This document shows positions 31,701 to 63,300 of a stretch of DNA of 64,000 nucleotides, one piece after another (position 1 is the first letter of the stretch; every line of letters starts with the position of its first letter). The stretch covers positions 6,325,878-6,389,877 of the forward strand of contig NC_135174.1 in the NCBI RefSeq assembly GCF_041146795.1, written 5' to 3'. A model generated the notes under the pieces. The model worked only from the letters and a program-made list of their open reading frames with translations, was not told the DNA's origin and did not search any database. The translations under genes and the position numbers were made by a program. This stretch comes from Maylandia zebra. Taxonomy: Eukaryota > Chordata > Actinopteri > Cichliformes > Cichlidae.

Positions 31701-34700
31701 GAGAGCCTGACACACCCCGATTCCAGAGAGGGTGACCAGCTCCGCAAGGAAGTTGCAGATAATGTGAGTCTTTTGGATTGTTTGTGGGCATGTATCAGTG
31801 TAGGAACAGTTTCACTTAGCTGTTTGTTTTTCCATTTAGCTAAATGAGTTGTACAAGCAAATTCCTGGGGCGCAGAAGGTGCAGAAGACCTCCTTCAGGT
31901 AAGATGGACTAAATGTCCAGTAACACCAAAATATGTGTGCTTTTTTGTCATCAAAGCTAGAAACAAATGGTTGATTTTCTCAGTAATTGTTGCTTTTTCT
32001 TTGCCCTTGCAGAACACAGAGAAATGCTGGAAAAAGGTATCATTAATATTGTAATAATGCAAGAAAACGGTACAGGTTTTGTCTTCTTAGGGAACCTAAG
32101 GTGATTCATGTCTAACTTCTCTGGCCCTGCTGTGCTCTTTAGGCAGGACTACACCATCATGGACACCGTCTTGTCTGCTCCTCGCAGCAGCTACCCAGAT
32201 ATCGTCAAACTTACTGAAAAGAACGTCCAGTCTGGAAACTTCCACGACCTGAAAGTGGTGCCGGGCTACTACACAGTAGCTACAGATAGAGGTGTGTGTT
32301 ATTTGCGTGCCCAAATGGTTAAAATGGATCTTTTGTTTGCAGCAAAGCCAAGCTATACTCTTATTACTGCCTGCCATAAATCTGCTCTTCTTCTGCAGAG
32401 GCTGCTGGAGCCATAGAGTTCCAAGAAGGTGTGGAATCAGTAGACGTCCATGTGCCGCTCTTTGTCAAAGATGAAGACGATGACAAGAAACAACTGCTGG
32501 TGGAGGCTGTAGATGTGCCTTTGGGGATTGCAGAGATTGGAAAACGTTTGGTTAACATCACCATCATCAAAGAGCACGGTGAGGAATGTTGAGTTAAAGT
32601 TCGAGAGGCCCTGTGGTTTGAACAGTGTATGATGTTTGATCGTATAAACTGATTCTTTCCTCTGTTCCTCCACCAGCCACCAGTGTCTTTTCATTCCTCC
32701 AGCCGTCTTACACCTACAGCAGGAAGGATGGAGTGGCCAACATCCCAGTCAGCAGAGAGATCATTGAGGACGGACGCACACAAGTCGCATACCGCTCACG
32801 AGACCTCACTGCCAAGGATAAGAAGGTGAGCTGCTGCGTACTGGTAGCATGTGCGGCTTTTTATGTATGATATGGATGGGACTGAAAAATGAAGCCAACA
32901 TGGCCACATTAAGGTGTCTCCGAAAAGTGAGTAAGCACTCACAGACGTCCATGTTAAGACATTAACACGTTTACAGTCCGAAAACTGTATCATCTCTACA
33001 ACTTGTTAATAACAATTGTACACTGGGTGAGTGTTTTATAACTCATCCATTTGGATGCTGTTGGGACTTTAAATTCAAAAGATTTTATTTTATTTTTATT
33101 TATATACCAAAGGTGGATGCAGCTTGTTAACCATCATCCAAATATGGTCACGATTACCTCTAAAAATCCAAGGACGTGACCAAAACACTAAATGTATTAT
33201 TTTCAGCCAGATTTAGAAAGCAGGGGTCTCCAACTCCAGCCCTCGAGAGCTACTGTCCTGCAGCTTTTAGATGCATCCTTGTTCCAACACACCTGAATCA
33301 AATGAACGGCTTTGCCACACTTGAGGTAATTCGCGCATTTGATTCAGCTTGCTGGAGTAGCTGACACTAAAAGCTGCAGGACAGCAGCTCTCGAGGACTA
33401 GAGTTGGAGACCCCTACTTTAGAGCCTTTACAGGCTTGTGCCAACTTCTAATCACAGTCAGCGTGTGTGGTATAGGTCAGTGGGTTTTCCACATTACCAA
33501 ACGGTTCCTCCATAATGTATTTCAGGACTACTTGACTGTAGAAGGAGACCTGACCTATGGTCCAGGTGAGACTCAGAAGATAGTTCCTGTTCGTCTCCTG
33601 GAGCTGAGTGAGAAAGATGGTCTACTAGAAGACAAACAGGTCAAACAGTTTGTCATGGACCTCAGTAATCCAAGGCAGGGTGCCAAGCTGGGACGCTACC
33701 CGAGAACCACTGTTACCATCGCAGACCTGCCAGGTAAATGGATGCACAAGTGTTCTGATCACAGCCTTGATTCTAAGAGAAGAATTGATCGCTAAAGTTG
33801 CTCCTCTTTCCCACATTATCGCTCTTTATCACACAGAACCCAGTGTGATGGCGTTCAAGAAGGCCACCCAGAACTTCACCACAACAGATCCAACCTACAC
33901 CATTCCAGTGGTCCGCACTCGCAGCCCCGAGACCCCTGCCACAGTGAAATGGCGCACCAAGAAGGCCCAGCGCTTTGAGTTATCTGGCCCTCTGAAGTTT
34001 TCTCCCGGAGAGACAGAAAAGAACATTGTGATTGATCCAAAAGCCTACCCCGGACCCATCCAGCCTGAGACCTTCCAGCTTGAGCTATTTGACCCAAGTA
34101 CCAACGCTTCTATTGGAGACAAGAAGACCACCGTTGTCAATGTCACAGATGGAGGTAAGTGTGTTGAGGTGATGTTGAGTGAACTGTTAGTTCCACAAAC
34201 ACATTCATCCAAAGATTTACTGAAATGGCATTTGAGAAGTTTCAATCATTGTGAAACAAAATTACTGCAAGTTTGTTTATCTGGTAATTCCTTCCAATCC
34301 CCACAGTTCCAAGATCTCCTGAAATAGCACAGATGGCACAGAAGGGCTTCATAAACAGGAAAGCTGCCTCACCTGGTGGTCACCTCCTCTCCCCAGAAAA
34401 CCCTAAGGCTGTAGCAACTGGACCCAGAAGCATCCGCCTCAACTGGGAACCTCCACCTGGTAACCCCATGGGGTACAAGGTACGCGAAATATCGCTGATA
34501 AGGCCTTGAAACAATATTTATCAAACTCACTGACTCCTAATCGGCCATTCACACTGCAGAAGCGAACAAATTTCTTTAAATCACGCTTGATTTTTCTGAT
34601 TGTTATGCACGAAAAAAACAGGTCTCACCAACCACATCACTGCATTTGGCAGCTTTTTTTTAGGACAGATTTTCTGCAAATCACGCACGACTTTCAGTCA

Positions 34701-37700: not shown

Positions 37701-40700
37701 ACCAACATGCCGAGATTATATAATAACTGTGTTTGGTAGTGTGTGTTAGCTTCCTAGCCTTTAACCCGAGTTCTATTTTGCTGTTTTATTTCTGTGATTT
37801 TTATGTTTTTATTTTTACTAACCAGCTTAAACAAAATCAGTAAAATTTCTATGCTGTAAAAAAAATTTTCTGACTGGCTCTTCCTTACCTGGCTTCCCCA
37901 AGTTGTTGTACACCTGGATACTCGCTGGTGTTGCAATACAATGACCATATAAGGAAATCTGCGCCGTCTCCGAGTTTGGCTCACATCGATTATTTGTACA
38001 TACTGTGACATTATTTGTTACTTTGGCCATGTTTAAGGTGAGCGTCCTTTAAAATATGACTCTATGACCTGCTGCAATACAAGTAAGCATAACATGTGAT
38101 TTGCTTGGAGAAAAATACAGTCTTCTAGCAATAAAAAAGAAGTGATTTCAGCTTGATTGAATGAAAAAGTGCGGTTGTAGTGTTCACTGCCCTATTGCAC
38201 ATAAGCGGGACTGAAACTGTTGCTGCTTTACTCTCCGCGTTCTGGCTGAGGCTGCTTCCCATCAGTGGCACTGAGAGTGAATGAACGCTTTAAATGTTGC
38301 AGATTGTGTACTGTGTTATTAACAACCCCGGCTCTCGCTGTCGTGCATCACAGATTATATGAACGGGAAGTGGGAACAGAATTTCCTTTTCCCCGGAGGG
38401 TCAGGAACACGTAACCTGTCAGCATCGTCCTCCCCCATGTCCACTCTGAGCTCAAACTACAGAGGGGCGGGCGGCTCCTATACCACGGAAACAACCACCA
38501 CCTACTTGTCTGGGCCAGGTATGATGGGAGGGTGGGAGCAGCGCTGAGAAAAAGTAAAGTAAAACTTCATAACGCCGCATGTCTTTATCCTTCATCTGTC
38601 TCTCCTTCCATGCAGGAGGCTCTCGCAGACAGGATTTGATCGGAGGTGTCCACACCTCTGACGTTATCCTGAGGAAGCGTTCGGAGAACCGAGGCTACAT
38701 GGAAGAAAATATCCGTGATTCTATCGTCATGGGGGACCTGTCAAGCAAATTCCCAGATCTTGGTAAGTTTTCACAGAGGTTTGAATTAATTTAGAGAAAT
38801 TGAGAATGAATTATTTCTGTTCTTCTGGCCACGAGAGACGCTTTTCTATTTTTTTGGAGTGCAACAGTAAAGATGCCGTGGCAGGTAAACTATGCAAGAG
38901 CATGAGCCCATTGGTTTGGACATCTGTTAGCAGGGTTGGGGCTGTTGGCTGCACAGCAGACTTTGCAGGAGCTAAGCTGACTATCGCTGTTTCTCCCTCC
39001 CTCCCCTCGTTTCTATTCTACTTCTTTTTTCTTCCCTCCTTATGCGCTTTTCCTCCCCCTTCTGTTTTGCTTCCATCATTTTCTTTACCTCCTGGTGTCC
39101 TGCTCCCCTCTACCCCTCCCTCCTTTCCCCTGCTCAATGCGCCATCAGGTGGGTTCGGCTACACTGGGATGCAGAGCAGCTCTCAGAGTCACTTCAGCTA
39201 CAGCCTGTCTCAGGGCTCGAGGGCCAGGAATCAGTCTTCAGACGTCAATGAAGCCTTGTATAGTCTGGACAGGGTTCTCCATGGTAAGTCTGCAGCATAC
39301 AAGCATGGAAGCACTGGAAGGGTTTGCTGGGTGTGATGCATAAAGCACCCCTCTGCAGTCTTCGCTGCTTCTTTAAACGTGTGGAACTTTGCCTCGCTCT
39401 GAGATCCGATGTTCTAACAACTAGAAATCCCTTTTGTTTTAGATTAACACAATATTTCATTCATGTATACACATCACATCATTATTTCAAGGGGAACACA
39501 CTCATAAAACAGACTTGATGCTAGCAATTGATATCATAAATTCAATCACCAGCCTCACCGACAAAGGGAATCGAGACCTTAGATTTTCATACAAACTGAC
39601 TCCTTGTTGCAATCAGAGTAGTCGCCTCCTGCTGGCCGTTAGAAAGAATTGTGCCTTGGCATCACTTTTTTCAGACCTAGCAGGGATGCTAATAGTCAAA
39701 CACATTACAGTTTTGCTTTTTATTGAATTTATTCATTTGCTTAACAGCTAGACTTTCTCCCACCCCAACCTGTCACAGCAGATGGCCCCGCCCCTCCCTG
39801 AGCCTGGTTCTGCTGGATGTTTCTTCCTGTTAAAAGGGAGTTTTTCCTTCCCACTTTTGCCAAAGTGCTTGCTCATAAGGGGTCATATGACTGTTGGGTT
39901 TTTCTCTGTATGTATTATTATAGGGTCTACCTTACAATATAAAGCACATTGAGGCGACTGTTGTTGTGATTTGGTGCTTGAATTAGTTTCAGGAGTTGGT
40001 GGAGATGAATATTGGGTTTATTATATTTTTCTTGTAGCCAAAACCACCAAAACTCGTATGTCATAAAAGGTCTGTGAGGGAATTTGATGTTAAATACAGT
40101 TTATCCTGCTGCCTTTAATCGCAGTGCTATTAGGACTACGCAAGAGCTGTAATGTATAATGCAATATATAATCTGTGACAGTCTTAAAATCAGTTCCATC
40201 GCTGCAAAGCACTCAGAGTAATGGAGATAAACGGCTTTGTGAAATTAGAAAAGTCATTTAAATCTAATCTGTCCCCTCTCTGATCTGAAGACGCACCACA
40301 CATCTGTTAGGATGCTCATGTTTTTGTGTGTTATCTCTCAGATGCACGACTCGCCCCCGGCATTCCAGACACCCCGAGCAGACTGGTGTTTTCTGCACTG
40401 GGACCAACGGCCCTCAAAGTCAGCTGGCAGGAGCCCCACTGTGAGAAAGACATCCTCGCATACTGCGTCCTCTACCAGCTCCTCAACGGAGGTAAGTGCA
40501 AGGAGCACAACGTTAATGTGGAAGAGCGAGAACAGGATGTGCGTGTATTCACTTCCTGTTTATGGAGGCAGTTGACATCTTCTCCGATGGTGATGCTGAC
40601 CACGCTCTGCTCCCTGTAGGTGAGATGAAGCGTATCAACGTGACAAACCCGGCAGAGAACTCGGTGATCATCCAGGACCTGCTGCCAAATCACTCCTACC

Positions 40701-43290
40701 TGTTTAAGGTGAAGGCTCAGAGCCAGGAGGGCTGGGGTCCGGAAAGAGAGGGCGTCATCACCATCGAGTCTGCTGTCGACCCCAAGAGCCCCCTCAGCCC
40801 TGTGCCAGGTGCTCATTCACTTATCAGTCCACAAAAACAACGTCTGCTTATCTTAACAAAGGCACTCGATCTAATATTTCTCCTTCCTCATGCTGTCGCT
40901 TGTCACTTCTTCCTCCAGGTTCGCCTTTCACTCTTAGCACTCCCAGCGCTCCAGGACCTCTGGTGTTCACAGCTCTGAGTCCTGATTCGCTGCAGCTCAG
41001 CTGGGAGAAACCACGCAAGCCCAACGGAGAGATCCTGGGATATGTAGTCACCTGCGAACAGCTGCATGGCGGAGGTGAGGCTTTCTGCACAAAGGTCACT
41101 TGCAGTAAAGCTGTTACATTTTAAATTGTGCGAATTTGGTTTGACCTCTGTTTCCTGTTTCCTGCAGGTGATATGCGTTCCTTCGAGGTGAACAGCGATG
41201 GCGCTGAAACCAGTCTGACCGTTCCCAACCTGACTGAGAACATGCCCTACAAGTTTAAGGTCCAGGCTCGAACCACACAGGGCTTCGGTCCGGAGAGGGA
41301 GGGCATCATCACCATTGAATCTCAGGATGGAAGTAAGATAAAGCCCGTACTGACAGATTGGCGTCTGATATTAATTTTAAAAATACAACAAAAAAACTCC
41401 CAGCGGTTATTGCTAGAAGCTGAAATAGACAAAAAGCTGATCCCCTCGGAGGGATGAGCGTAAATGTCAGTCTCTTTGTCTGTATTGGAGTGCAGGGCAG
41501 CTTCTGTCCAGAGTTGACATTTTAGACTGAGGCTATGCAAGAGCAAACATTTTGGAGTTATGTAACAGGAATATGCTCGATGAATTTTAAAGCTGGTACC
41601 AAAAAAGATCCATCTTCTGGGAACCTCTGGGGTAATTTATGATCCTCTCAGTCAAGGAGAAATATTGGCATGACTGTGGCGCAGCAAAGGTGCAGAGGTC
41701 TCTGTAATCCATCAAGAATTAATAGAAATTTGTCCAGCGATTCTTACTTTTAGCATAAATTGACAGAAATTATCATTTCCATGAGTTAATATGCATTTTT
41801 AAATGTTAAAAACTTAGATTCAACATTAAGAAAGCAAGCTTTTGTTGTGCTGCTTTGCACAATAGAAGTTATTGAGTTAAATCTGAAGATTGACAGGTGC
41901 TTGTTGACCTCAGGGTTCCGCTTACAGATAGGGAACCTTACATGACACCCAAAAGAGGAACGCGATCCAGCCCACTGGAAGGCTTTACAAAAAAAACTCC
42001 CATCATTAAAGGTACCGTTGAGGTCACCAAATGTCGTCTTTATGGGGGAATGAGTTACAGGGCGTCCACACAGGAAGCAGTTGGCTAGTTGCACATCTTG
42101 TTGTGCTCGATGGTTAGCTAGAGGACATTGTAGAGTCAGATTGCCTAGATAACTTTCTGAGGTGTTCATTCTTTTTGGCTTTAGTCGCTCACCTTGAAGT
42201 TGCAGCGTTATTTTGGTAGCTGTTCAAAGTCACTGACGGTCTCTTCAGAGCAGAGCAGCGGTAACTGTCAGATTTGATCAGCATTTCCTGTTTGGCGATC
42301 AACATGTGGATGTCCTTATTTGAGGAACTAAAAGTAGATCCTGATTTGGGTTATTTTAAAATATAAGCTGAAACAGTTTTTAAAGAGGCGTGAGACATGC
42401 TCTTCTTTGTACTACTGTTTGGGCGCCATTTACATTTTTTTGTCTACATTTTCTGGGGTTTGAGGTTTGCGTGTGCTCCTGGGTTTTATGAATTTTTACA
42501 CAGTGTAAATACCTGTATTTCAAAAAAAGTTATATGTCTTATGTTGAGGAGATATCAGCTAGGTTGATCCTAGAGTTGGGCTTTGCTTTTGTGTAATATC
42601 ACTTTATACCACAAGATGGTGCTGTTAATTATTATAACCTTTATTTAACCAGGCAAGCCATTAAGATAACATTTTTGTTCATAAAGGCAGCCAGCCAAAG
42701 CATAACACCTCCTAATATTTCAGAAATTAAACAACAGCGCACATTTCAGCTACATTTCAACACCACTTGTAGAATGCTGCCCCCTGGTGGTGAAGGTTTG
42801 GTTAAAATACCTTTAAAAGCTCATGTAGGATGAAGCATTGCAAATTAGCTTAAGCTTATATGATAATGTATTGCTCAACGCATTTCTGTCACTCCTTCTT
42901 GGAGATAACAGACTTCTCATCCATCTGTTTTTGTCCTTCCTTGCCTGTAGGTGCTTTGTCCCAGCACAGCAGCCAGTCGATGACACGGCGGGAGGTTTTC
43001 CACATGCCAACGGAAGTCAGCACACGAACTAACATCTCCCACACCGTGCTCGACGACCCCTTCTTCTCAGGTACAAAAATAATAAACTAAGCTTCATTTC
43101 TCTTCTTTTTAAAATAGGATGTGTTCACTGACTGTTATGTACCACTGTCTGTCCAACAGATGGGATGATGATGACTACGCAGCACACAGAGACTAGCGGC
43201 ATGGTGACTCGTCAGATCACCAAGGAGGTGGTTCAGAGGGGCGTCATGGGAGCAACTACTGTCACAAAGAAGATGTTTTATGAATCTTAA
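22116..43290 (+). CDS. itgb4: Integrin beta 4, complete
   Basis: Beta subunit of the laminin receptor alpha6-beta4, which anchors epithelia through hemidesmosomes by linking laminin outside to plectin and keratin inside. I resolve 42 coding exons totalling 5,982 nt, a continuous frame of 1,993 residues plus TAA (43288-43290). The human form has about 1,822. The start ATG 22116 opens a typical signal peptide ([19 protein letters not shown], cleavage likely near TCSYA). In order: PSI domain, beta-I domain with MIDAS motif DFSNS (about residues 136-140) and the beta-4 block [17 protein letters not shown], cysteine-rich EGF-like stalk, one transmembrane helix (about 715-738), and a very long cytoplasmic tail with Calx-beta, two FnIII repeats, a connecting segment, two more FnIII repeats and a C-tail. 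The long tail is unique to beta 4. The extra Calx-beta-like exon (33837-34154) and exon 36513-36668 are unusual points. Exons are listed in the sub-features that follow. Confidence 0.97.
24182..24905 (-). mobile_element. Non-LTR retrotransposon 3' part, antisense in itgb4 intron 6
   Basis: On the minus strand 24480-24182 reads like the 3' end of a widespread fish LINE (GGCATCTGACAAAGATGCC, GAGGTGTTCTGGGCA, then CTTAAGCTGCTGCCCCTGCG and CAAGCGGCAGAAAACGG). 24905-24640 resembles an earlier block of the same type (ACTCCTCCGCTTGGAGCAG read on the plus strand). Stops and gaps show it is dead. Rex-type family is my best guess. Confidence 0.65.
28935..29933. mobile_element. hAT-type non-autonomous element in itgb4 intron 16
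   Basis: Both ends carry inverted AGTAATC/GATTACT-rich sequence with a shared TTACTTTTTTCAAGTAAC motif; tips are CAGAGATGGTGTG (left) and AAGTAACTTGACCAACACTG (right). Flanks are GTCGTGTG (28927-28934) and GTTGTGTG (29934-29941), an 8-bp duplication with one mismatch. The 999-bp body has no transposase; the open frame at 29248-29448 lies inside it and is not a gene. Confidence 0.82.
29950..30275 (-). mobile_element. tRNA-derived SINE copy 1 in itgb4 intron 16
   Basis: On the minus strand it starts with a tRNA-like head containing an A-box-like GTGGCTCAGGGGGTTGGGAA and a B-box-like CGGTTCGATCCC, followed by a body with CTTGGTCGTTGTGTCCCTGGGC-like sequence and ending in AT-rich DNA near 29950. 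It is closely related to the copy at 37340-37660 in the same orientation. The SINE family name is not known to me. Confidence 0.75.
31028..32291 (+). other. itgb4: itgb4 transmembrane and juxtamembrane exons 17-23
   Basis: Exons: 31028-31146 (transmembrane helix, leucine-rich, followed by the [13 protein letters not shown] cysteine cluster), 31237-31270 (34 nt), 31362-31556, 31660-31763, 31840-31898, 32013-32036 (a 24-nt micro-exon, eight codons' worth) and 32143-32291. The juxtamembrane cysteines are conserved in human beta 4 and are candidates for palmitoylation (inference). The segment [20 protein letters not shown] closely follows the human sequence. Confidence 0.92.
32399..33733 (+). other. 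itgb4: itgb4 Calx-beta domain exons 24-26
   Basis: Exons 32399-32578, 32677-32825 and 33526-33733 cover the region before and within the single Calx-beta domain known from mammalian integrin beta 4 (about residues 937-1115). Typical features are [36 protein letters not shown] and [16 protein letters not shown] ending in TTVTIAD. The intron 32826-33525 contains a foldback hAT-like element. Confidence 0.9.
33220..33417. mobile_element. Foldback hAT-like MITE in itgb4 intron 25
   Basis: Long inverted arms: GCAGGGGTCTCCAACTCCAG at the left against a right end whose reverse complement starts GTAGGGGTCTCCAACTCTAG, and both arms continue through TCGAGAGCT and CTGCAGCTTTTA. Flanks TTTAGAAA (33212-33219) and TTTAGAGC (33418-33425) match at 6 of 8 positions. 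Confidence 0.78.
33837..34154 (+). other. itgb4: itgb4 exon 27, extra Calx-beta-like module
   Basis: A single 318-nt exon with phase-1 borders on both sides, encoding about 106 residues (1116-1221). It has the Calx-beta layout: [20 protein letters not shown], an arginine-rich strand ([19 protein letters not shown]), [17 protein letters not shown], then [16 protein letters not shown] and TTVVNVTDG, parallel to the preceding domain. The human protein goes from its Calx-beta domain to the first FnIII repeat without a comparable module, as far as I recall it. Open frame and good splice sites (ATCACACAG / GAGGTAAGT) argue that it is a real exon. Confidence 0.8.
34307..35637 (+). other. itgb4: itgb4 FnIII repeats 1-2, exons 28-31
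   Basis: Exons 34307-34479, 34831-35011, 35232-35369 and 35455-35637 (about residues 1222-1446). FnIII hallmarks are [57 protein letters not shown] and [15 protein letters not shown]. In human beta 4 this pair binds the plectin actin-binding domain. Confidence 0.94.
35721..39283 (+). other. itgb4: itgb4 connecting segment, exons 32-36
   Basis: Exons 35721-35849, 36513-36668, 38354-38518, 38616-38762 and 39149-39283 (about residues 1447-1690). The exon 36513-36668 is easy to miss: it begins with [19 protein letters not shown], which parallels the human GWKFEPLLGEELDLRRVTW, and keeps frame (phase 1 on both sides, 52 codons). The rest is Ser/Thr/Tyr-rich and poorly conserved, fitting a flexible phosphorylated linker. 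The human region is alternatively spliced. Confidence 0.85.
37340..37660 (-). mobile_element. tRNA-derived SINE copy 2 in itgb4 intron 33
   Basis: On the minus strand: GGGGCGATCGTGGCTCAAGA head, B box GGTTCGAGCCC, body with GTCGTTGTGTCCTTGGGCAA, and a GCTAAATAAATACAGGCCAT tail. Same family and orientation as 29950-30275. Confidence 0.8.
39781..39985 (+). repeat. Dispersed repeat, LINE-3'-end-like, copy 2
   Basis: Nearly the same sequence as 17545-17767, from GATGGCCCCGCCCCTCCCTG through GAGGCGACTGTTGTTGTG, ending at TTTGGTGCTTGAATT. It lies in itgb4 intron 36. Confidence 0.85.
40342..43290 (+). other. itgb4: itgb4 FnIII repeats 3-4 and C-tail, exons 37-42
   Basis: Exons 40342-40491, 40620-40808, 40919-41074, 41168-41332 (FnIII 3-4, about residues 1691-1910), 42951-43070 and 43160-43290 (C-tail). 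Marks are [59 protein letters not shown] and [18 protein letters not shown], all nearly identical to human. In mammals these FnIII repeats contact BP180 and BP230. The intron 41333-42950 contains a stretch near 42635-42680 resembling a dispersed fish repeat (CCTTTATTTAACCAGGCAAG). Confidence 0.94.
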
Positions 43291-45452: not shown

Positions 45453-48400
45453 TCAGTTCCAGAGGCAGGGCCCCGGGCACAGGCACCGCTGTTTCGCATC
45501 AGCAGGCCTGATCACCAGGTCTTTGACCACCTCCACAGTCCCAAAAACAGGGTACAGTTCCTCTGTGAACTTCTCGGTATAGGTGTACAGGTGGGAGCGC
45601 TTCTCCACGTCGTAGAAGGACAGCTGGCCCTGCTCATAGTCCAGATAAATGCCGACTTTCCTGGGCACCAGGCTTTGAGGTAAAGGCGTAGCGGGTACCG
45701 TCAGGGCTTTCAAATCTGTGCCTCTCTCCAGACGGAGGGTCAGGTATCCCGTATCTGTGTTCAGCGAGCGGAAGCCCTGCCTCACGGCCGAGGCTTTGGC
45801 CACTCCCAGCCGCCAGTCCCGCTCGCCCACCTCCACCTCCCAGTAGTGGCGTCCAGAGGCGTAGCCCTCCTGGCCCACAGCACACCACCAGCCATCGAAG
45901 CGTCGGGGGCATCGTGGGATGTCGCGGCGCTCCAGGCCGCACCGCATTCGTTTTTCATCATCTGAGATGAGCAGGCCTGAGTGGGCCGATTCGGAGTCCA
46001 GGGTGACGTCCTCTGTGGAATAAAAGGGCGGGATTACAAACTGCAAAATGATGTCACAGTAAGGTGAAAAACAGAAAAGAGATTTTCATACCTGCTGCAT
46101 CACAAATCCAGTTCCACACTGCAAAGAAAAAGAAGAGAAACTCCGTTAGCTCATTGTTTTGTACAGTAGTTTAAAGAAGGCATGCAAAATTTACCTTCAC
46201 ACGATAACACACAAGCAACTTACATCCACCCCACTGTACTCAAAGCCCTGAAGTACAAAGGGGGCTGAAGTACTTGTGAAGTATTACTTTATAAGTATAA
46301 ATATAACTACATGTAATTTCAAGAGCTGAAAAACACATTAATGCTTTGTACAAAAAAAATGCAACCAAATGAATTTTACGCCCACTCCCCTCACAGCCGC
46401 TGTGATCCACAGCCTTCTGTGTGCCCACTGGAAACATTTTGAAAACTAGTCCACGGCTTAAAGTTGTTCAGTGTGATCGGTCCCAACTATTATACAGAGC
46501 ATGAAAAGTCCAATGTATGCATGAGTGTTCAAATATGACTATATGTGCAATTTCTTTTGACAAAAAGAAGAATAACAGCTACAAAATGAGCCCAATATCA
46601 ACATGGAGGTAAAAGGAAAACTCTTTCTTGTCACAGCACTTTGTTAGGTTTACCATTATTATTCTCATTATTTGTTTCTGTTATTCTGTGCCATATTTAC
46701 ATTAAAATGGTGCAGTTTTTAAACTAATATATATTCTATGATACAGGTGCTCCAAGGTGGTTGTAGGAAAAAAATCCTGCTGAACATAAGCTAGAGTTTT
46801 GGATCTAGTTTATGACATTTGGCATAAACATTTTTTCAGTTAATGTTATGTGTCTGAGGATTTCAGAAAGAGCTGAGGCTACAGTTCACACAGACTGCTC
46901 AAAATTGTAAAATAGAAGAAAGGGAAAATGTTGCCTGGTCTGATAAGTCTCCAAATTTGAGTTAAGCAACATAAAGGATGGATCAATCCTGCCTTGTATC
47001 AACAGTTCAGGTTGTTACTGGTGGTGTAATGTTTTCTTGTCACGCTTTGGGCCACTTTGTGCCAACTAAGCAGCCTGTCAACCTGAGGATGGGTGGCTTC
47101 CTCTATGACTACCCTATACCCATCTTCAGACGACTGCCTCCATGTCAAAACGCTCAAATCATCTCAAATCTGTGTCTTGAGCATAGCTTCACTGTACTCA
47201 AAGGCCTCCACAGTCCCCAGCCAACAGTCAGACTGTACTGACATATAGTAAAAGTGCATAATCCAGTGGCGAACCATTAAAAAAAGACTGCATTTGCTAA
47301 TAATCGAGTTTAAAGTTTATCGTTACATACTATAGATTTCAGATCATATAATCCAGCCCCACATGTCTGTATACAGCTATACAGAGACATTAAAGGGGTC
47401 ATTCATTTATTCATTACAGTGAGCTTCTGGACTTACCGCCGTGGGGAATGTAGCGCACAGCGTCTGAAAGAACAAACAAAGACTGATTAAAGACAGACAA
47501 GTGTTCCACTCACAACTCAAACCCTCCTACCAGCTTGTTTCCTAACATGCTTCCAATCACATTTTTATAGATTAATTCTAATTAAATATTCAGTGGAGTG
47601 TATTCTGTTACCACACACAACAGCCACATCACCGAGTGACTCGTTTCACATCCTGATTTTGCCAAGTGGTTTTTGTGCTGACACCAACATTTTGTATGTC
47701 ACCCACTCAGTCGTCTGTGAGGCTTTATAGCTGCGCCTCACTTCAGCCTAGTCGGCTACGTTTTATTTTGGCCTTAGCTCTGAAGTCAGGGTTAGTCAAA
47801 CTATGATCATCAAATGTTATTTTCGCATTATTTTAATTACATAGAGAAAGATAAAAAGGTCATCAGTTTTAGCTGGTTGTAACCCGGGCAACTGAGCCTA
47901 TGAAAAGTAAGACTGCCTCATCATGGAAAAATGCTAATCCTATGAGCTAATATGTAATTTAACAAAAGCCACTTTCAGCTGCTCCTTTATTCACATGGGG
48001 TCACTTTTCTGGCCCTTTCCTGTTGGAACCTCTCAAGGATTTATGTCTCACCATGATAATAAATGTGTACTAGTGATAAACAGGTCTGAACACCTTCACA
48101 CTGGTCTAAGCTTTAAACTGACCATTAGACTAATGGTAGAATTACTGCAAAGCTAGAATATTCTTTATTTATTTGATGAACTTCTTGTTTTAAAATGTGA
48201 AGTAAGTGACTAAGCCCATAAATTTATTAGGAAAATAATTACTGAGGTCTTGGGCTGTGATATATAATATAGACACTAATAATATCTGTGTCGTGTCAGC
48301 CTCCGATGACTTCTTTCACCGCTTCAGGCAAAAACTGGATAAACTGAGGAAACTGGATACAATGCTGCTGCTGCTGCTGCACCGTGTTTCAGCAGACTCA

Positions 48401-50938
48401 CACTTCTAATTAGGTAGTGTGTCATTAGTGACAGTAGCTCATTGGAAACTGTTCTTCAGTTATTAATATTTATAAATGCCGCAAAGCTGCAAGCATCAAA
48501 GAAACATTCAGTATTTTTTCTGTATTGTCAGAAATGTCGGTATCACAAATGTTCTGGAAACTTTGTGATATAGTTTTGAGGCTATAACGCTGAGTCCTAC
48601 CCAGACTCTGCTTCTTCTACAGAAGGCATGTCAGTGTGACTGAGGAGACCCTCAAAGTATTCCTCAACTGCAGCGGTGTGAGCAGAGCGGAATTCCTTCA
48701 AGGCCAACCAAAAATCTTGTTCCATGGCCTCGCCGGACTCCTCCCACACCTGAGAGTTTGCTTGAACTGCTGCCAGAGCCACACTCTGCTTGGCGTGCCA
48801 CTACATGACAGCTGCCTCTGGAGTCCCGCAGGAGAACCAAGCATCAATCACTGACCTGCGACCAGGTTTGTTTGAGTGTCACCTGCACTTGTGAACACGG
48901 TGTTTGTTATGGACAAACTGTGATTTGTCCAGAGAACATAACAGAGAACAGGCGGTTCCTCCCAGTCATGCTCCTCCAAGTCTCACTGTCCATGCCCATG
49001 TGAACATTAGTAGCACAACGGAGATTCCAGGTGGGGCACTCAGACACACTAAGAAGACTAGGTACTCTGAAATGTCACTGAGTAAATAAGGGCAAAAGGC
49101 AACCAGGACCTGTTTACTGGCCCAAGGACAGGAGGAAGTAACCCTCTCATCCACTGGGATGAGAGGGTTGAGCCTGAGCTAGTGCACGAGGCTAAAAATA
49201 TCCCAATATTTTTTTTCTTTCAGACGAACAAAACAAAAACAGATTTATCTAACATTTGTCAAGCATATTTATCTACTTGTTCACTTTCTGCTTGACTCAG
49301 TAGTGGTATACTTTTACAATACCACCAGAATAACATGTAAAAAAGATAAAGACCCCATTCTTCATAATTTAATTAATTAAACCAAATGTATTGTCATTTT
49401 ATTCCCTACTTTATTTTCATTGGCAAGGATGGGGAGAATCCCTTTTTTCACATGTGCAGAACAAGTTTTTGGTCGAAGCAGCAACAGGTATTGTACAAAT
49501 GTTGGTTTCTGACTCATGACCACTTTGCAAGATCAGGATGTTTTGTTTCATATTGTTAAACTGGATGAGATCCACTCACCAATGTTCTGACTTTTCTGCT
49601 TCTTCACCAGCCACTGCTTTGTCACATCCACCTACAAAGACACGCACACACATACAGAGTATGTCAAGGTAGACAGTGGACACATTCAGGACAAGGTGAG
49701 CTGAACAAAGAGATAAACAGATTAGCATGATTGTCGTGCAGCCTATATGCAGCATGCTTGACACACTTAGCCCAGATATCGAATGTGAGAATGTCATGCA
49801 AGTGTCGTTCATGTTTCGAATCACCTAAGTTAGCATGCTTCTTATCCCATAAATTACACCACAGAGTACAAAAACATTTAATGACGATCTCTTAGCGACA
49901 GATATCAAGACCTTTATGGGGCTGTCGGCGTTCAGCACGGCCAGCATGACGAGCTCCATGGCCGGGAACAGGTTGGGCAGACGGCCCCTCTTCCACTGGA
50001 ACTCCAGGTCATCCAGCATCATGAGCACAGGCTCACCTGGCCACACAGTGGGCTGAAAAAAGAGGTTTAGAAACAGTTGCTTCGAATTTATGGCCAGAGC
50101 TCAAGCACAGTCCGATTATCATGAGATCATTGTCAAGGGCACGATTAAGCCTAATCATCTTTATCAGATGCAACGACGGAACTGGGTCAGACTTTAATAA
50201 CCATCCATGTCCCGTAAGAAAGTCACCTGAGGTCTGCCTTTAATATTCCGGGTCCAATCCATGATGACCCGTTTATGGGGGCCCATGTCGTACTCGCCGC
50301 CTCCCTCAAGCATGCAAAGAAGGTGTCCCTTCCAGTCCTTCTTCTCAGACTTCTCATACTGGTAGTCTGATGTGATTGTCCTTGGCTGAATAAAGAATAG
50401 AGACTTTTAAGAACATCCATAAAAAACACAATTTATTTCTGTAAATGGCTGCTATCTCGTACCTGCACTCTTTTCTCCAGCACAGCAGCCCATTCCACGA
50501 TGAACTCCCGGCACACGCTGGCTGTCCAGATGTCCTCTCCGGTCCAGATGTGACACAGGATATTTGATCTCTGAGGTACAAAGGCAATGCGAATAAATGC
50601 AGAAGACTCTAAGTAATAAAGAGCAAAAAGGGAGAGAGGAGAAGAGCTTACCTGGCAGATTCTGTTGAGTTCCCGGGCCAGCTCCATAATAAACAACTGA
50701 CTTTCCACCAGAGGCTCCTTCTTCTCAAGCTTCACTTTTTTGCGAGACTCCTGGAGCAAAGAAACAGAAAATTAAAAGGGAAAAGAACATCATGACTTCC
50801 AGAACATTTAGCCCCCGCAGCAATTACTGTGGGAGGATTTGTATACCTTGAGTCGGATCTTGAGCTTTTTGGCTGGCTCGATGAGGAACTGCAGGCACTC
50901 TTTCATCATGCTGGCAGCTGGAGTGCGGGGCCGATGCC
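45453..50938 (-). CDS. PRY-SPRY domain protein lacking a RING finger
   Basis: Minus-strand exons in transcription order: 50938-50847, 50750-50652, 50570-50463, 50385-50227, 50052-49912, 49631-49580, 47463-47437 (27 nt), 46118-46092 (27 nt), 46012-45453 (TGA 45453-45455). Starting at the Met-Met codons at 50909 (MMKECLQFLIEPAKKLKIRL) the frame closes at 411 residues. The first ~275 residues are helical and charged (KKVKLEKKEPLVE, then WTASVCREFIVEWAAVLEKR) with no motif I recognise; the last ~190 form a PRY-SPRY domain (VTLDSESAHSGLLIS, HYWEVEVGERDWRLGVAK, VGIYLDYEQGQLSFYDVE, LYPVF). SPRY domains bind peptides, often in TRIM E3 ligases, but no RING, B-box or obvious coiled coil is seen. The 50938 exon starts in phase 2 of a codon, so an earlier exon exists or the start is internal. 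Genes of the TRIM47/TRIM65 group lie near UNK in human; whether this is related is unknown. Confidence 0.8.
46855..47241 (+). mobile_element. Degenerate Tc1-like transposase fragment
   Basis: In an intron of the PRY-SPRY gene, opposite strand. It resembles Tc1 transposase DNA: GTTGCCTGGTCTGATAAGTCTCC (first catalytic block, translated WSDKS), ATCCTGCCTTGTATCAAC, ATGTTTTCTTGTCACGCTTTGGG and CACTGTACTCAAAGGCCTCC. Frameshifts and stops throughout. Same family as the remnant at 17425-17845. Confidence 0.72.
48595..49060 (-). mobile_element. Non-LTR retrotransposon ORF2 fragment
   Basis: On the minus strand a partly open reading gives SLDKSQFVHNKHRVHKCR, GRRSVIDAWF, then AVQANSQVWEESGEAMEQDF and EGLLSHTDMPSVEEAE, closely like the endonuclease-to-reverse-transcriptase linker of a common fish LINE. 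It contains stops and ends before the reverse transcriptase. It lies in an intron of the PRY-SPRY gene in the same orientation. Confidence 0.75.
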
Positions 50939-53466
50939 CTGTGGTATGATAATAAAAAAGCTTTAGCACGCTGGCACTCATTCTGTCAAGAGCTGGAGCT
51001 GACTGCACTCCGTCGCCCACACAAATCGATGAGGGTGCAGAAATGGCTAACGCGCGAGAAGGTGGCAAAAAGGTGAGGTGGCGGAGAGAGGAGCACTCAC
51101 TGCAGAACTTTTATCACAGCTCTGCACTCAGAGTCCACAGAGAGCTCATTAAGATCCCCACCGAGCTATCATTAGGTGTTGAGCCCACTCGCTCAGCCCA
51201 CTCACTCCGCATAGATATATATATATCCATGAGACCACACAGTGGGTGGCAAACAGAGATGTAGCAACATTAAAAAAAATATTGCACAGTAACAGGATTT
51301 CCTGCATGCGTGTGGATCGATGCATCCTGAAAGTGGGAATTTATTCCCATGGAGACGTGAGCACAGCAGAGCGCTTTTAATAAAAACACTGTGGAGCCAT
51401 GGTGGGGGTGGAGGAGGAGGAGGGGTGGGGGGGGGGGGGGGGGGGTCCTTGGACCAGTTTGCTGTTGAATCAGCAGTCAGTCTGACAAGCAGAGGGGATT
51501 TGCTGTTCTTGCTGTGATGTAGAGGCAGCAGGAGAGCTACAAAAAAAAAGAAAAAGAAAAGAAAAAAGGAGGCAACAAACACTGAGGAGCACAAACTCAG
51601 GACTGAGTTGACCTTTTAGAGAGTAAATTCTGACATTCATAGGTATGCCTGCTTTCTGCCTATTGAGTATGCATATGAATTTCTTCCACCCGCATCCCTG
51701 AACTGTTAGAAACGGTTTTATGGAAAGGGGGTTGGAATCAGTTATACAGTGTTATTAAACTATAACTTCCAATCAACTCCCTTCTATAATTTTTAAACAT
51801 TTATTTACACCATCATGAGTTTGCGCATGTCTGATACCAACACCAACCACACTAATGCATCTTGATTTGTAGTATTTATTAATCTCTCTTTCACTATATA
51901 TGAGGGCAGCAGATGTCAAAGCGTTGCTTGTCTGTAACTGACTCATGTTTGGATGGTGGGTTTATTTCTGGCAGCGGAGGCTGAGCGTGTAGGTGACAGA
52001 GGAGCTGCAGGATTAGAGGAAATCCGGGATTATCGGTGCTGTACAAACGCAGGTAGTGACTTTCTATATTGGGAGTGAGTGACAAATCACTGCATGCAAG
52101 TTGGCATCAGAACAAACACACTGCACAATAACAGGCTCACGTTACCGTACAACAGTGTATCCATACACACCGAATTTAATTATTTGTTCCCAATTTGTAA
52201 AATATTATTCTTAATAATAAATAGAACAGAATTTCGAAATGCCAGTGTTGTAAGGTTAAAAAATGAGGCCTCTTGCACATGAAGCGATGTTTACAAAAAA
52301 GGACATAATCAAAGCAAGCGCACACATTATTCCATGTAATTAGGCCCTGTGCACTGGCAAAATGCAACCAGTTTACCAGTTGTTTTTTTATCACCTCGCT
52401 CTAGAGGGAAATAAATAACACCTCACCTTGTAACGGATAAATTCCCTTCAGGAAGAAAACTCTACGCGGCTTTTCTGTGATGCTTTCGCGAAACTCGGTT
52501 TAATTTTTTAGTGCTCCGCCATCCTCCACAGCCTCACCGCTTCCTTCACCCATCCACAACTGCGGCACGAGAGACAGCGCGCGTGCTCTTATCAACCACC
52601 GCCTCCACTGAGCGGCAGTTCCAAAGGCGGGCCGCTAGAGGCCGCCAACTAGCTTTACAGAAACGGAAGCGTCGCAGAGTTTTTCTATTTAAAGATTAAT
52701 TTACTTTTTTTTTTAGCCCGAAAATACATTTTATTTATTTATTCCAATTTAAGTAAGTCAGCGTTAAATAGTCTAGAAAGAGCACTGCGACAGCAAACAG
52801 CCTGAGGTGGACTCGAACACACGCCTTTGTTTACCAACGGAGATATTATAGGCGAGAGACGCAAAGTACTAAGGCTGCAAGATCACCGACCAAATAACTA
52901 ATACTTGTCTGCCAAATGGTGAGCTTCGCTTCTAGAAGGACCTTGACTATATAAACTCGCTGGGTCTTTATTATGGTGTCCATAAAAATCTTAAATTAAC
53001 GACTAAGATTCCGTTTGTCTGTTTTCTTTTCTTCCTTTATATTCCCGTAGCCTGTATAGCTTCTGTCACGTTTGAAAATATAAATATTAGCTACTGAAGT
53101 GAATGGTTGTAAACACGAACCTACAGTTTGTTTGGTCAACAAGGCGGGGTCTCTGAAGGCAGCACGACAGGTTTACTGTCAGTCAGTGCGCAGGTGTACG
53201 TGGTTATTATTTCAGGCGCTTGTGTTTGCAGGTTCAATATTCCTTCGCTATTTATTTAAAATAATAACTTAATGACAGCAACACATCGCCCGTCCTCGCT
53301 CACGGTCTCGGGCAGGTACAGTGGAACTGGAAGGTGTTTCTCGATATGTTAGCTTCACGGAAGTGTGTACACAGCGCGCGTCCCCAGAGCGTGCTTAAAT
53401 GACAGGAGGATAGAAGCGGCGCGTCTCTTATCAAGGACAGGCTCTGATCACAGCTGGACGATCAAC
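50939..53466. other. Upstream region between divergent PRY-SPRY and RUN-PDZ-PTB genes
   Basis: A possible non-coding first exon of the minus-strand gene lies around 52427-52580, with a good donor (CAAG then GTGAGG on the minus strand at 52427) and a GC-rich flank near 52560-52680. The rest, including 51450-52420 and 52690-53400, holds no gene I can support. GC-rich and CpG-rich sequence near 53370-53460 marks the likely start of the plus-strand gene. Confidence 0.45.
51427..51445 (+). repeat. Uninterrupted run of 19 G
   Basis: Preceded by further G-rich sequence (GGTGGGGGTGGAGGAGGAGG from about 51400), so the whole 51400-51445 stretch can form a G-quadruplex. It lies in the 5' part of the minus-strand PRY-SPRY gene or its upstream region; on that gene's sense strand it is C-rich. 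Confidence 0.9.
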
Positions 53467-56400
53467 ATGGCACCCAAAGACCCTCTCCTTGGCTCCCTCA
53501 AAGGTAAGCATCAATAATAGATGAGTGATGGTACGATGCCATTGGATCACAATTTCAGTAAGCAGCTGATCGTGACGTACTCATAATAAAACGTACAACT
53601 AGAATTGGGTTTAATTTCTGACCCTGCAGCGCGCTATTTTTACGCCAAAAAAGCTTCCGCTACGTTTTTTTATCATCAACACAGTCTCTGTTTTAGTGTT
53701 GATGAGTGAAATGGCGATGATCACATGGCTTGCAAAAATGCAGTTATGTCATGCTGATGACAACAGATTCAATGTGTGTTGCGTGTTTTTTCCCCTTCCC
53801 ACTCAGTGTGTGTCCTGAACCTGCAGTCAGATGGAGAGACGGTGACAGATTCCAACCCTCACCTCGCCTCCTGCTGTGAGCTGCTGGAGCTGGTCCTCAG
53901 GAAGGGACTCCAGCGTCAGTATCATTATTTTGTGTAGCTGAATTCATTTTGAAGGAGACTTCTGCAGTATTCACTCAGGGTGTGTTTCATTTCTCTCCAG
54001 AGCCCGTTCTTAGTCTGGTGCACAGAGATTACTGGCACTGCTTCGAACAGCTACCCCATCAAGATGCCTGTGGCAGGTAACTACATCCTGCTTAGTTTAG
54101 CAGATGGGGAAGGTTTTTTTGTTGTTTTTTTTAGTGACAGCTTCACTCATTAATGCCCGTCACCTCTCTGTCTGTCTTCTCCTGTGCAGTCTGTCTGCTC
54201 TGTCCTTGGCAGTTGAGCAGACCAGAGTTTGCAGGAAGCTGCTCTCAGCTCAGGGCCGAGGGCGCTACCTGCTCAGGCTGGCCCTCAGCCGCAAGGTCCT
54301 GCCGCAGTTCTTCACACACCTGCTGCACACTGCCAGACTCCTGGAGGTCTGATACATGGACAGATGCATTGTTCCCCAGTGTTGAGCACACAAAAATGGG
54401 ATTTTAGAAAGTGTGTTTCTCTAACAGACTTGCATAGTTGTGATTAACATTGTTTCTCTTTCCTTCAGTGGTACAGCCCAGATTTATCAATTCTCAGGAA
54501 TGAGGAATTTGTGGGTGAGGTTACAGCAGCTTGAACAAAACTGAGGAAGTTCTTGTCAACAACAAAATCTTAAGAGCTGCTGTTCTTCCTCTTCCAGAAC
54601 CTTTCATGTCGCTGCTGCTGGTGCTCTCACACATGGACTTCAAACTGGACATGGAGGTCAGAGCTGCTACTGTGATTTTTTCCAATCACTTTGAACTCCA
54701 ATCTAATAAGAATTTTCTTTTCTTGTATACAGAATTGCAGTTTTCTGGATGAGAGCTGGCTCCTGCCGGTAAGAGCATCACAGTAACACTGTTATTATGT
54801 TATTTGTCTTTGGATATTATATAAATCCATAGAAGGAAAAAAAAACTACAATCTTAAGGAGGTGAAAGACTGACTGCTGGCTGTTTGTTTTTAGGTGTGT
54901 GAGATATACGAAGTTGTGCCCTGCCGGGAGGTAGGGTTGGTTCTGAGGTTAGTATGTTCCAGTCTACAAATATTTCCATTACACTGAGCACGTGGGCTAG
55001 TAAAAAAACATCTATGGATCTGCTTCTTAGGTATCTCAGCGGGCGCGTCTTTGTTCTTGACCTGATTCCCGGCAGTCAGGCTGACGTCGACAAGTTCATC
55101 GGTGCTGGTGACATCCTCGATGAGATCAATGGGACGTCGCTGAGGAATTCTAAAAGTGGACATGTGAGAAATCCCTCAGATATACAGTGCCGTACTGCAT
55201 TAGGGCTGTTGTGATATTGCATTTTCATGACACAATTATCCAGCAAAACGAATTCATGTTAAATATATCATGCAATATCCGTGGATATTTCGTGTTTGTG
55301 GATCATCTATATTTTGATAAATGCCTTAGATCCAGGTGGGGCAGTCTCCGTGAATTATGTTTTGCAGATGATGACATTGTGACCTATAGTGAGAGTCTGG
55401 AAAGATGGAGGTACGCACTATAAAGGAATGAAAGTTGGTGGGAGCAAAATGGAATACATACATGTGATGAGAGGGAGACAGATGGAAAAATAGTGCACAA
55501 GGGAGGTGAAGAAGACAGTGCAGGCAGGGTGGAGTGGGTAGAGATGAATGTCGGGGAGGGATTTTTGACAGGATAGCAGCAAGAGAGTATTGATAGATAA
55601 ATATAGATAGATGTAGATATTTAAGCTTGAGCTGCCAGGCGGGATGCAAAGGTGCTGCATATATATACACTTCTTTACCAGACCTTTTTTACTTGCACTC
55701 CCAGGCCGGTGCAGTTCTGTCTCGGTTTAAAGGCTGCCCTTTGTCCATCCGTGTTATAAGATGGAGGGCCCACGACGGAACAGTGTATAGACCCCTTATC
55801 AAATTCCTGCGGGCCCTGAGGACAGAGAACCCCACCCTGCAGCTGGGTCCTGCTCCCTCCCAGGAGACAGCAAGCAGAGACCAGAAGCCTCCTCCATCAC
55901 AGTGTCTCAAAGAGGGAAGGCAAGTGTTAACACGCCATCGCTGCGATCTGTATTCAAGCTGCCGTCATGATGTGACATTTGAGAAATACATTCTGAACAA
56001 CCTCTGTTCCACAGGATTGTTTACATAGTGCAATTCTTGGGAAAGGCAAACATTGGAATGGTAAATGACAATTTGTTTTTACAGCATTTTCAAACATTCT
56101 GCACACACCTCCTGTAACTGTCATTTGTCTGCCTCTCTCAGTTTGGAGGAAAGGAGGTGCTCCAGCATGCAATCCCACAGGTGTTGCAGAAAAACCTACC
56201 TAGCAAGGTAATGAAAGCTGTTTCCCCAATTTTCTGCAAAGCACTTATATATGCATAACCCATTTAATTTTCCCTGCAGGAAGTGCTTTTAGATTTGAAG
56301 GAAACACATTTGACGTGCACAGACAGAAACAGTAAATTGGTAAGTAGATCTCTCTCACAAAGATTTGCCTGTACTTTAATTCTCCTAAAGTTTTGTCTTC

Positions 56401-56952
56401 ATTTCTCTCATCAGGAGTTGTTTGAGCACCATTATCCCGAGATTTCATGTGTAGGGAGATATGCACAGCCAGACTACACAGCATTTGCCTTCTGTGTGGC
56501 GTAAGTATCACATTTTATATGAAAGCCCTTCACTGATATTGCAGTACATCCTGGCAAAATACCATAATCTAAGCTATTTTATTATTAAAGGCTTTTCCAC
56601 ACATCCCTGTTAAACTAGGCTGCTTGTAGTTTAGATCGCACTCCTCCTACGACAGGATGTCATGATGCAATATACAAGCCTAGTCATTGGCTGGGCCCCC
56701 ATGTCATCTAAGCACATGATTGGCTGTGTTCACAGAGACTCCCCAGAAACCCCTCAGTCCACAGGCTTTTGCTGTGTGGTGCTACGAGCCAGCAGCATCA
56801 AGGAGTGCGAAGACATCGTCTGCAGGATTGGTGAGGCATCACAGCTCTCAGACGCAGTCATGTGCTTACAGGCGTGTCACTCAAACACTAAACACTTGTA
56901 TTTTCCCCCACCTACAGCCACTGGGTTCAAGCATACGGAATGGTTTGTATGA
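53467..56952 (+). CDS. RUN-PDZ-PTB domain protein, complete
   Basis: Sixteen coding exons: 53467-53503, 53807-53914, 54001-54076, 54190-54346, 54469-54514, 54598-54656, 54733-54768, 54895-54947, 55031-55163, 55705-55919, 56015-56060, 56142-56207, 56280-56339, 56415-56500, 56736-56830, 56918-56952 (TGA). They sum to 1,308 nt, 435 residues. Residues ~13-173 are a RUN domain (CELLELVLRKGL, GRYLLRLALSRKVLPQFF, LLVLSHMDFKLDME), used by Rab/Arf-linked adaptors. About 176-255 are a PDZ domain (GLVLRYLSGRVFVLDLIPGS, IGAGDILDEINGTSLR). After a Pro/Gln-rich linker, ~305-435 are a PTB/PID domain (VQFLGKANIGMFGGKEVLQH, HHYPEISCVGRYAQPDYTAF, GFCCVVLRASS). It looks like a cytoplasmic adaptor with three interaction modules; the partners are unknown. 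No signal peptide or membrane segment. Exon 10 uses a GC donor (AAG then GCAAGT at 55920). I cannot match it to a named mammalian gene. Confidence 0.9.
55325..55600 (+). mobile_element. Non-LTR reverse transcriptase fragment
   Basis: In the intron between exons 9 and 10 of the RUN-PDZ-PTB gene. Translation gives CFADDDIVTYSESLERWRYAL, the FADD catalytic box of a LINE reverse transcriptase, followed in another register by GMKV(S)-like and KMEYIHV-like sequence. Degenerate and not functional. It is the same kind of element as at 1-800. Confidence 0.75.
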
Positions 56953-56982: not shown

Positions 56983-56988
56983 AATAAA
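56983..56988 (+). terminator. Polyadenylation signal of the RUN-PDZ-PTB gene
   Basis: AATAAA only about 30 nt after the stop codon, implying a very short 3'UTR. The next gene is convergent and its 3'UTR begins or ends within the next few hundred bases. Confidence 0.75.
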
Positions 56989-58033: not shown

Positions 58034-58621
<588 letters not shown>

Positions 58622-60338: not shown

Positions 60339-63300
60339 AAAATCTCCGTGAGGAATTTTGCTCACTGCTGCCGAGACTGTGTTGCGCTAAAACAGTAATT
60401 ATTTTTATGAGATTATCTTCGTGAAAAACTCAATGATATCAATATATTCCTATTTGTGTAGGCCACTTCAAAATATGGTGACACCGTACAACAACATATT
60501 TCAGTCTCTTTGGCTGCTCACCTCTTTCCCAGATATCTGAAGGAGTTTAGAACGGAGCAGTGTCCCCTGTTCGTGCAACATAAATGTACACAGCACCGTC
60601 CTTTTTCCTGTTTCCACTGGCACTTCCTGAACCAGCGACGCCGCAGGCCAATACGCAGACGGGACGGAACCTTCAACTACAGCCCAGATGTTTACTGTAC
60701 CAAATATGATGAGGGAACAGGCACCTGCCCCGACGGAGATGAGTGAGTGTAACAAAGGCTTCAGTTTAGCACAAGATACTTGCCTTGATTATACTTACAA
60801 CAGAAACAAAAATAGGGATTTGTGTAAGGGGGAAGTTTTGTTTTTGAATGGCATAACTGGCCACACCATGTCTGGGAAGGTCTATATTAGTGGTATGTAT
60901 AGTCTCTGTAAGGTTAATTTAAACAGAAAGACATAGTATTTAACTAAATGTCCACATTTTCAGGTTTGTTGTTGTTTTAGCAGCCCTTTCAAGTTTAATC
61001 TGGCAGGAGAATGTCAAATTCAAGTTCTTTATGAAGCGTATTGTGCAATTGTGTAGGTCTCTGAATGTCAATAGACCTTTATTATCTCCATTAAAAGCAT
61101 CAAAGTGGTAATTCGGAACACAAATGGGCCAAAACTGTATGGATGTATGTCTAGTAGATGCTTTAGCACCTGTACTGTCACTCTGAGGGTCTTCCTCCAG
61201 TGAAATGTGCTGTACAATCCTCACAATGACCTATTTTAATATTAACAAAGAAAATGGAGATCTAAAGGATGCAACATGATTCCTGTTCTGTGACATTTTT
61301 GGTTCAGGCAGCCCACCATATAATGGCATCTTAGTTGTGGTTAGTTATGGTCAAAGTAGCCCATTTATTTAATTAATTATGTCCCTCCATCTATTTTCCT
61401 ACCACGGACCCCTTCTTCTGTCTCTTCATAAGTCTCTTTTTGGGACTGATGTCCCTCCTCCTGCACTTCTCCAAAGCTTGCAGCAGCAACTGTTTGTGAC
61501 TGCGACTTCTTACTAGTTTTTGCTGGTACTACTGACGGTGCAGCTGCTAACATATTGCTTACTTTGGCACATTTTGTTGCATTTATTTCTTGTTTCTCTT
61601 TCTTTTTCTCTCTCAGCTTTTCAGTTCCATGCTTTACCTTTTGTTTAGCCATCTTTATCAACCACTTCTTCCACACTAAACTCTATTCTACAAGGTGCAT
61701 GACTGCACAGGGAAGGTAGGGGCGAGCCAGTGATGGGGCAATCCAAATTCTAATACAAATGAACCAATGGGCTGCTGTCAGTGCTTGTAGGGTAGTGTTA
61801 GAGTGCACAGCGGCCCATCAAGCCGACCTGTATGCTGTGTGCATATGGACACAAAAAACATAAAAAATTATATTTACATGTCATGTCTGATTACCAGTAC
61901 AGTCCTGGTTGGCACCTATGGATAAAGGTGCAAAGGGTATATATTTTGTGATTTGAGCTTCAAATCAGAATACAAAAGTGTCCTTTAAATGTTGTGTGCT
62001 TAAAACATCTCACAGTCCTATTTACATCAGCAGTTGCCACAAACAAAGAATTATGAAGTGTGTTTTTCTTTACCTTTTTTTTTTAAATACTATCCATACA
62101 AAACAGTTCATAATTTAAAAAAAACATTGAAATGTATGCATGATTTGCATGCCTTTAAATAAATAATTTAACATTTTTGAATTTTATTTTTCTACATTCC
62201 AGGTGCCCATTTCTGCATCGAACAGCAGGTGACACAGAGCGCAGGTACCATCTCCGCTACTATAAAACTGGATCGTGTATCCATGAAACTGATGCAAAAG
62301 GCCACTGCAGCAAGAACGGCTCCCACTGTGCATTTGCTCACGGATCACATGACCTACGCAGCCCCGTTTATGACATCAGGTACACCAAATAAAACATGGA
62401 AGCGATCTTTGAAGTAGTTTCTATGTGTGTGGCTGTGTGTTGACAAAGTTTTTTTTCTCATTACGTGCTACACAGGGAAATGCAGGTGATGGAGTCTCAA
62501 GGAGGCTCAGGGACCACAGACGGAGGTGGAGGAGATGGGCAGTCGGGACAGGCAGCGAGTACAGCCCTCATAGAGAAGATCTTGAGTGAGGAGCCACGCT
62601 GGCAAGGTAACATCTGGAACACCACTTCAGGAGGAATTCAGGCAGAAAAACAGCTCACTGCTCAATCTTTGCTATGTACTATCGGCTTTGTGTTCCTACC
62701 TAAGTACTAAGAGAAAGATCATATGTGTGTAGTCATTAGGATATGGATTGCGTTGGTGTGTGGGGATGTAGCTAGTAGCTGTAGATCGTTTCTTAGTAGT
62801 ACACAAAAACTCTCTTAATAGAACACAAAGCAAAGATGAAAACCAGGACATGGAGTCTTAAAGCGATCACCACAGTGATTCTAGAAACATGAAGACGTAG
62901 AAACAGAGGCTGTAGCCTGACTGCTCATCAGTTTACTTGTTGAAGCTTAGGGTCTGGCTGGTGGGCTGGGGTCAGCACTCACTCTGCTTTAACGTCACTG
63001 TGGGTTCTTAGCTAGCTTAGCGTTAGCATGCTGTCTGTGCAGATGGTTGCAAAGAGCTGAAGTTGTGTTAGCAGCATAATGCAAATATCCATGCTGTAGA
63101 CTGCCACTATTTTCCTCCAACACATGAACTGAAATCAGCTGATTGTAGCATCAGTGCAAGTGGAACTGATAAGCAAGATTGATAAGCAGACAGACTAACA
63201 GTTACAAATAACTGGACTACTAGGAGCTGGATCTCTACATTTCTTTTCTAATAAGAACATGAAAAATTGTTAGTCTTCCTACACTGACAAACACAGTAAT

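Follow-up and report, generated by a model that had tools for sequence, protein, structure and literature searches.

The plus strand of the stretch of Maylandia zebra DNA analysed here (64,000 nucleotides; the window) carries, between positions 53467 and 56952, a series of exons that a preliminary description had read as an adaptor with a RUN, a PDZ and a PTB domain. The locus raises the question of whether such a gene exists, what its three domains would do together, and what is to be made of its place at the site presumably held by GALK1 in human.

Joining the 16 exons in silico gave a coding sequence of 435 residues plus stop codon, running on the plus strand from the ATG at 53467 to the TGA at 56952. 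The start codon lies in exon 1 (53467..53503). The RUN domain begins in exon 2 (53807..53914), continues through exon 3 (54001..54076), exon 4 (54190..54346, holding residues R97, R99 and R103) and exon 5 (54469..54514), and ends in exon 6 (54598..54656). Exon 7 (54733..54768) is followed by exon 8 (54895..54947), to which the first PDZ strands were assigned by eye, by exon 9 (55031..55163), also PDZ, and by exon 10 (55705..55919), which holds the end of the PDZ domain and the linker and closes on a GC donor. The PTB domain begins in exon 11 (56015..56060), extends over exons 12 (56142..56207), 13 (56280..56339), 14 (56415..56500) and 15 (56736..56830), and ends in exon 16 (56918..56952) together with the stop codon.

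Intron ends are GT-AG in 14 of the 15 introns and GC-AG in intron 10, where the donor reads AAG/GCAAGT (55919-55924, plus strand). GC-AG introns typically have a strong donor context of this AAG/GCAAGT-like kind. Splice sites were ranked with a simple home-made consensus matrix against local GTs and AGs, the GC donor of intron 10 being scored at its remaining positions only. Against 558 local GTs, 13 of the 15 donors reached the 92nd percentile or higher, the weaker ones being those of intron 2 (73rd percentile) and intron 4 (84th percentile); against 717 local AGs, the acceptors of all introns except intron 14 (85th percentile) likewise reached the 92nd percentile or higher. The joined exons have a GC content of 0.53 and a GC3 of 0.61, and the introns a GC content of 0.40. 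When the exon set was slid along both strands of the window, an open frame was obtained at none of 121021 placements, and at any placement no more than 4 of the 15 introns had G[T/C]-AG ends. A likely poly(A) signal, AATAAA at 56983..56988 (plus strand), starts 31 bases past the stop codon and is the sole AATAAA or ATTAAA within the approximately 100 bases 3' of the stop, the one stretch scanned for such signals. In silico splicing thus confirmed the 16 exons and the 435-residue frame of the preliminary description, as a predicted splicing pattern, and the existence of a protein-coding gene can be regarded as nearly certain.

The RUN domain occupies residues 36-161 (genomic span 53875..54656, plus strand). 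It matches PF02759 with E 5e-16 and 59.5 bits, for a curated cutoff of 22, over profile positions 3-130 of 131, so that on sequence grounds its presence is certain. The best matches among solved RUN domains were PLEKHM1 (E 0.0011) and RUFY3 (E 0.025). A local alignment with a human PLEKHM1 sequence that agrees in residue numbering with PMC5379943 scored 97, the best of 1000 shuffles reaching 58. In this alignment R97, R99 and R103 face PLEKHM1 R117, R119 and R123, and K45 faces H60; these four PLEKHM1 residues are reported to be important for Arl8b binding (PMC5379943). Three of the four Arl8b-binding basic residues are hence identical and the fourth is changed from H60 to Lys45, the arginine motif being general among RUN domains. 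RUFY1, which is reported to bind Arl8b through its RUN domain, carries an RxRAWL motif (PMC9597352), and the same position reads RxRYLL here (AWL to YLL). The GRGR of this motif likewise occurs in the solved-structure match RUFY3.

The PDZ domain covers approximately residues 174-255 (genomic span 54895..55764, plus strand). Its limits derive from a Pfam match at residues 195-235 and a match to a solved PDZ domain at residues 194-259, the remainder being placed by eye. The match to PF00595 (E 1.3e-4, 22.7 bits) falls half a bit short of the cutoff of 23.2. The same region matches many solved PDZ domains, the best being the PATJ/InaD-like chain 6ird_C, with E 1.6e-7 for the whole chain, a value that sums two PDZ repeats, and an i-E of 0.0073 for the better single stretch. 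These matches make a PDZ domain very likely. Helix B starts with His235 when a two-residue gap is introduced and with Ser233 when it is not; alignments show both registers, and the ligand class to be expected of the domain depends on which applies. The PDZ and PTB domains are separated by a Pro-, Ser- and Gln-rich linker of approximately 50 residues.

The PTB domain (residues 309-429; genomic span 56019..56931, plus strand) matches PF00640 with E 0.0077 and 16.7 bits, below the cutoff of 20.9. A profile assembled by hand from six known PTB domains, and able to retrieve the solved GULP1, NUMB, LDLRAP1, DAB1 and SHC chains, gave 20.0 bits over residues 309-429 and profile positions 3-124 of 131, and 1000 shuffles gave at most 9.7. 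A single hhalign run returned a probability of 46% and E 2.1e-4; a phmmer search against solved structures gave five hits to E 10, none of them a PTB chain. Taken together, a PTB domain is likely. The protein ends in EWFV, which we considered as a candidate PDZ ligand, as we also considered a putative assignment by eye of the ligand residues of the PTB domain.

About three quarters of the protein is covered by the three matched regions, and the Pfam search to E 1, which returned four families, gave no FYVE, PH, SH3, RGS or TBC domain. The order RUN, PDZ, PTB given in the preliminary description was borne out by profile and structure matches. The comparison with Pfam profiles that it had proposed gave a divided outcome: RUN alone scored above its cutoff, and PDZ and PTB were matched at scores below theirs.

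Several known adaptors share parts of this architecture. PLEKHM1 and PLEKHM2, RUN-PH effectors of ARL8, also have an N-terminal RUN domain, that of PLEKHM1 being the best solved match and having its R117, R119 and R123 kept here; they differ in having a PH domain, which was not found in the fish protein, where PDZ and PTB stand instead, and H60 is replaced by Lys. The RUN-FYVE adaptors RUFY1-4 likewise have an N-terminal RUN domain with the RxR motif, whereas here FYVE was not matched and PDZ and PTB are present in its stead. With neither FYVE nor PH turning up in the Pfam search to E 1, the protein falls outside both the RUFY and the PLEKHM families. At its other end, the PTB domain is C-terminal and of the same general kind as in GULP1, NUMB, DAB1 and LDLRAP1, which to our knowledge have no RUN or PDZ domain. 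RGS12 and APBA/X11 are alike in joining a PDZ to a PTB domain. RGS12 also has an RGS domain, and APBA has two PDZ domains after its PTB domain; in the fish protein, in contrast, a single PDZ precedes the PTB, a RUN domain is added and RGS was unmatched. We know of no human protein in which RUN, PDZ and PTB occur together, which fits the statement of the preliminary description that no mammalian name could be assigned.

What such a protein might do can be approached through its domains, RUN being a reader of GTPases and PDZ and PTB being, as a rule, readers of protein tails. These can be read from the sequence, and the binding steps that we infer from them would be as follows. The RUN domain would bind an active small GTPase on the endosome or lysosome membrane, with ARL8 as the first candidate and a Rab or Rap as the second; the other two domains would hold a membrane protein, PDZ by its C-terminal tail and PTB by an NPxY-like motif. 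The adaptor would thereby couple its cargo, a receptor or a transporter, to vesicles marked by the GTPase, and sort or position it. The RUN effectors known to us reach their cargo via coiled coils, PH or FYVE domains, or motor partners. RUN structure alone does not fix which GTPase is bound, according to a review (PMC7431699), and the arginine motif is found in RUN domains at large; we therefore word the reading as that of a GTPase effector adaptor, with ARL8 as the first candidate. That the protein is a cytoplasmic three-domain adaptor, recruited by a GTPase to the endosome or lysosome and capturing membrane-protein tails there, has in our judgement an even chance of being right.

Instead of a GTPase, the partner of the RUN domain might be a motor or a signalling protein (kinesin-1, dynein light intermediate chain or a TRAF6-like protein), and the encoded protein would then be a transport or signalling scaffold. 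Such partners have precedents, as kinesin-1 binding and a role in TRAF6 signalling are both described for RUN domains (review PMC7431699) and the RUN region of RUFY1 is reported to be needed for binding to dynein LIC1 (PMC9597352). However, GTPases are bound by most RUN proteins according to the same review (PMC7431699), and three of the four basic residues of the Arl8b set are retained in the fish protein; we consider a motor or signalling partner unlikely, although still deserving of attention. The doubt may equally fall on the other two domains. As both PDZ and PTB score under their Pfam cutoffs, they could be remnants in a degenerate adaptor, unable to bind peptides and serving only, as folded units, to keep RUN in position. 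The intact splice sites and frame over 16 exons speak against such decay, as does a PTB match that extends from position 3 to position 124 of the 131-position profile, and the degenerate adaptor appears improbable.

A mistaken gene model, with two genes or misjoined exons and the RUN domain belonging apart from PDZ-PTB, would undo any three-domain reading. The exon joins are predicted, introns 2 and 4 have weaker donors and intron 14 a weaker acceptor, and a GC donor is required at intron 10. This donor is, however, otherwise of ideal consensus; the frame has no internal stop; the donors of introns 7 and 8, located between RUN and PDZ, are strong (99th and 97th percentile); and in the stretch scanned, 3' of the stop codon, there is one AATAAA-type signal. 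We regard a wrong model as very improbable. If the three-domain adaptor is expressed and binds as read, it would unite GTPase recognition and two modes of tail reading in one small protein. As far as can be told, this would be a new combination of known domains and not a new kind of system.

To place the gene, the remainder of the window was compared with the order SAP30BP-ITGB4-GALK1-H3-3B-UNK, which we take to be that of the human genome. Upstream lie an HCNGP/SAP30BP-like ORF (10347-10763, plus strand, E 8.3e-14) and plus-strand ORFs with Calx-beta and fn3 domains resembling integrin beta-4, ITGB4 (33361-33792, E 4.1e-7; 40517-40975, E 6.1e-7). Downstream lie H3.3 (58037-58615, minus strand) and Unkempt (UNK; 60462-60743, plus strand, E 7.9e-21). 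The flanking genes thus match the human order on both sides, SAP30BP-ITGB4 upstream and H3.3-UNK downstream. A search for a GALK1 hidden in the window, run with a human GALK1 sequence and without a fish GALK1 as positive control, gave three weak matches, of which the best (E 0.69) is at the level of chance. With the flanks in agreement and GALK1 without a credible match in the window (again without positive control), the placement at the human GALK1 site given in the preliminary description is right as to the flanks, and the gap holds a further gene.

This further gene, which the preliminary description did not contain, is a PRY-SPRY ORF or exon at 45456-46085 on the minus strand (SPRY E 1.2e-20, PRY E 8.7e-16), situated between the ITGB4-like exons and the RUN-PDZ-PTB gene. 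A TRIM protein was considered, and neither RING nor B-box was found in seven other minus-strand ORFs at 48600-51110, whose only matches, OLF (E 0.052) and MAP1B_neuraxin (E 0.072), did not reach their cutoffs. The ORFs at 49579-49824 and 48969-49178, scanned for TRIM parts, were blank, and further exons of the PRY-SPRY gene were not found. Because RING and B-box are lacking in the scanned ORFs, we name this neighbour PRY-SPRY and not TRIM.

Relatives of the RUN-PDZ-PTB protein were sought by tblastn in 16 viral and 21 prokaryote stretches chosen by pattern matching, and none was found, a result that is silent on vertebrates. Among the open-licence papers listed, none described a RUN-PDZ-PTB protein in its title or abstract opening, which does not imply absence from print, and it is quite possible that public fish annotation already lists the gene as a prediction without a name. 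More tentatively, and with the weight of our expectation on the other side, the gene could represent a vertebrate RUN-PDZ-PTB family that fish have retained next to ITGB4 and H3.3 and mammals lack, and that would link ARL8- or Rab-marked endolysosomes directly to receptor tails. If true, this would be a class of cargo adaptor dispensed with in mammals; if the gene is absent from mammals, where the preliminary description suggested that it may have been lost or displaced, a component of vesicle sorting would have been lost or replaced there.

The window also contains a Tc1/mariner-type transposase ORF (14396-15016, plus strand; HTH_Tnp_Tc3_2, E 1.1e-22). An ORF at 3194-3667 (plus strand), with the helix-turn-helix matches HTH_32 (E 4.2e-4) and DUF4817 (E 0.0024) both below cutoff, is possibly another transposon.
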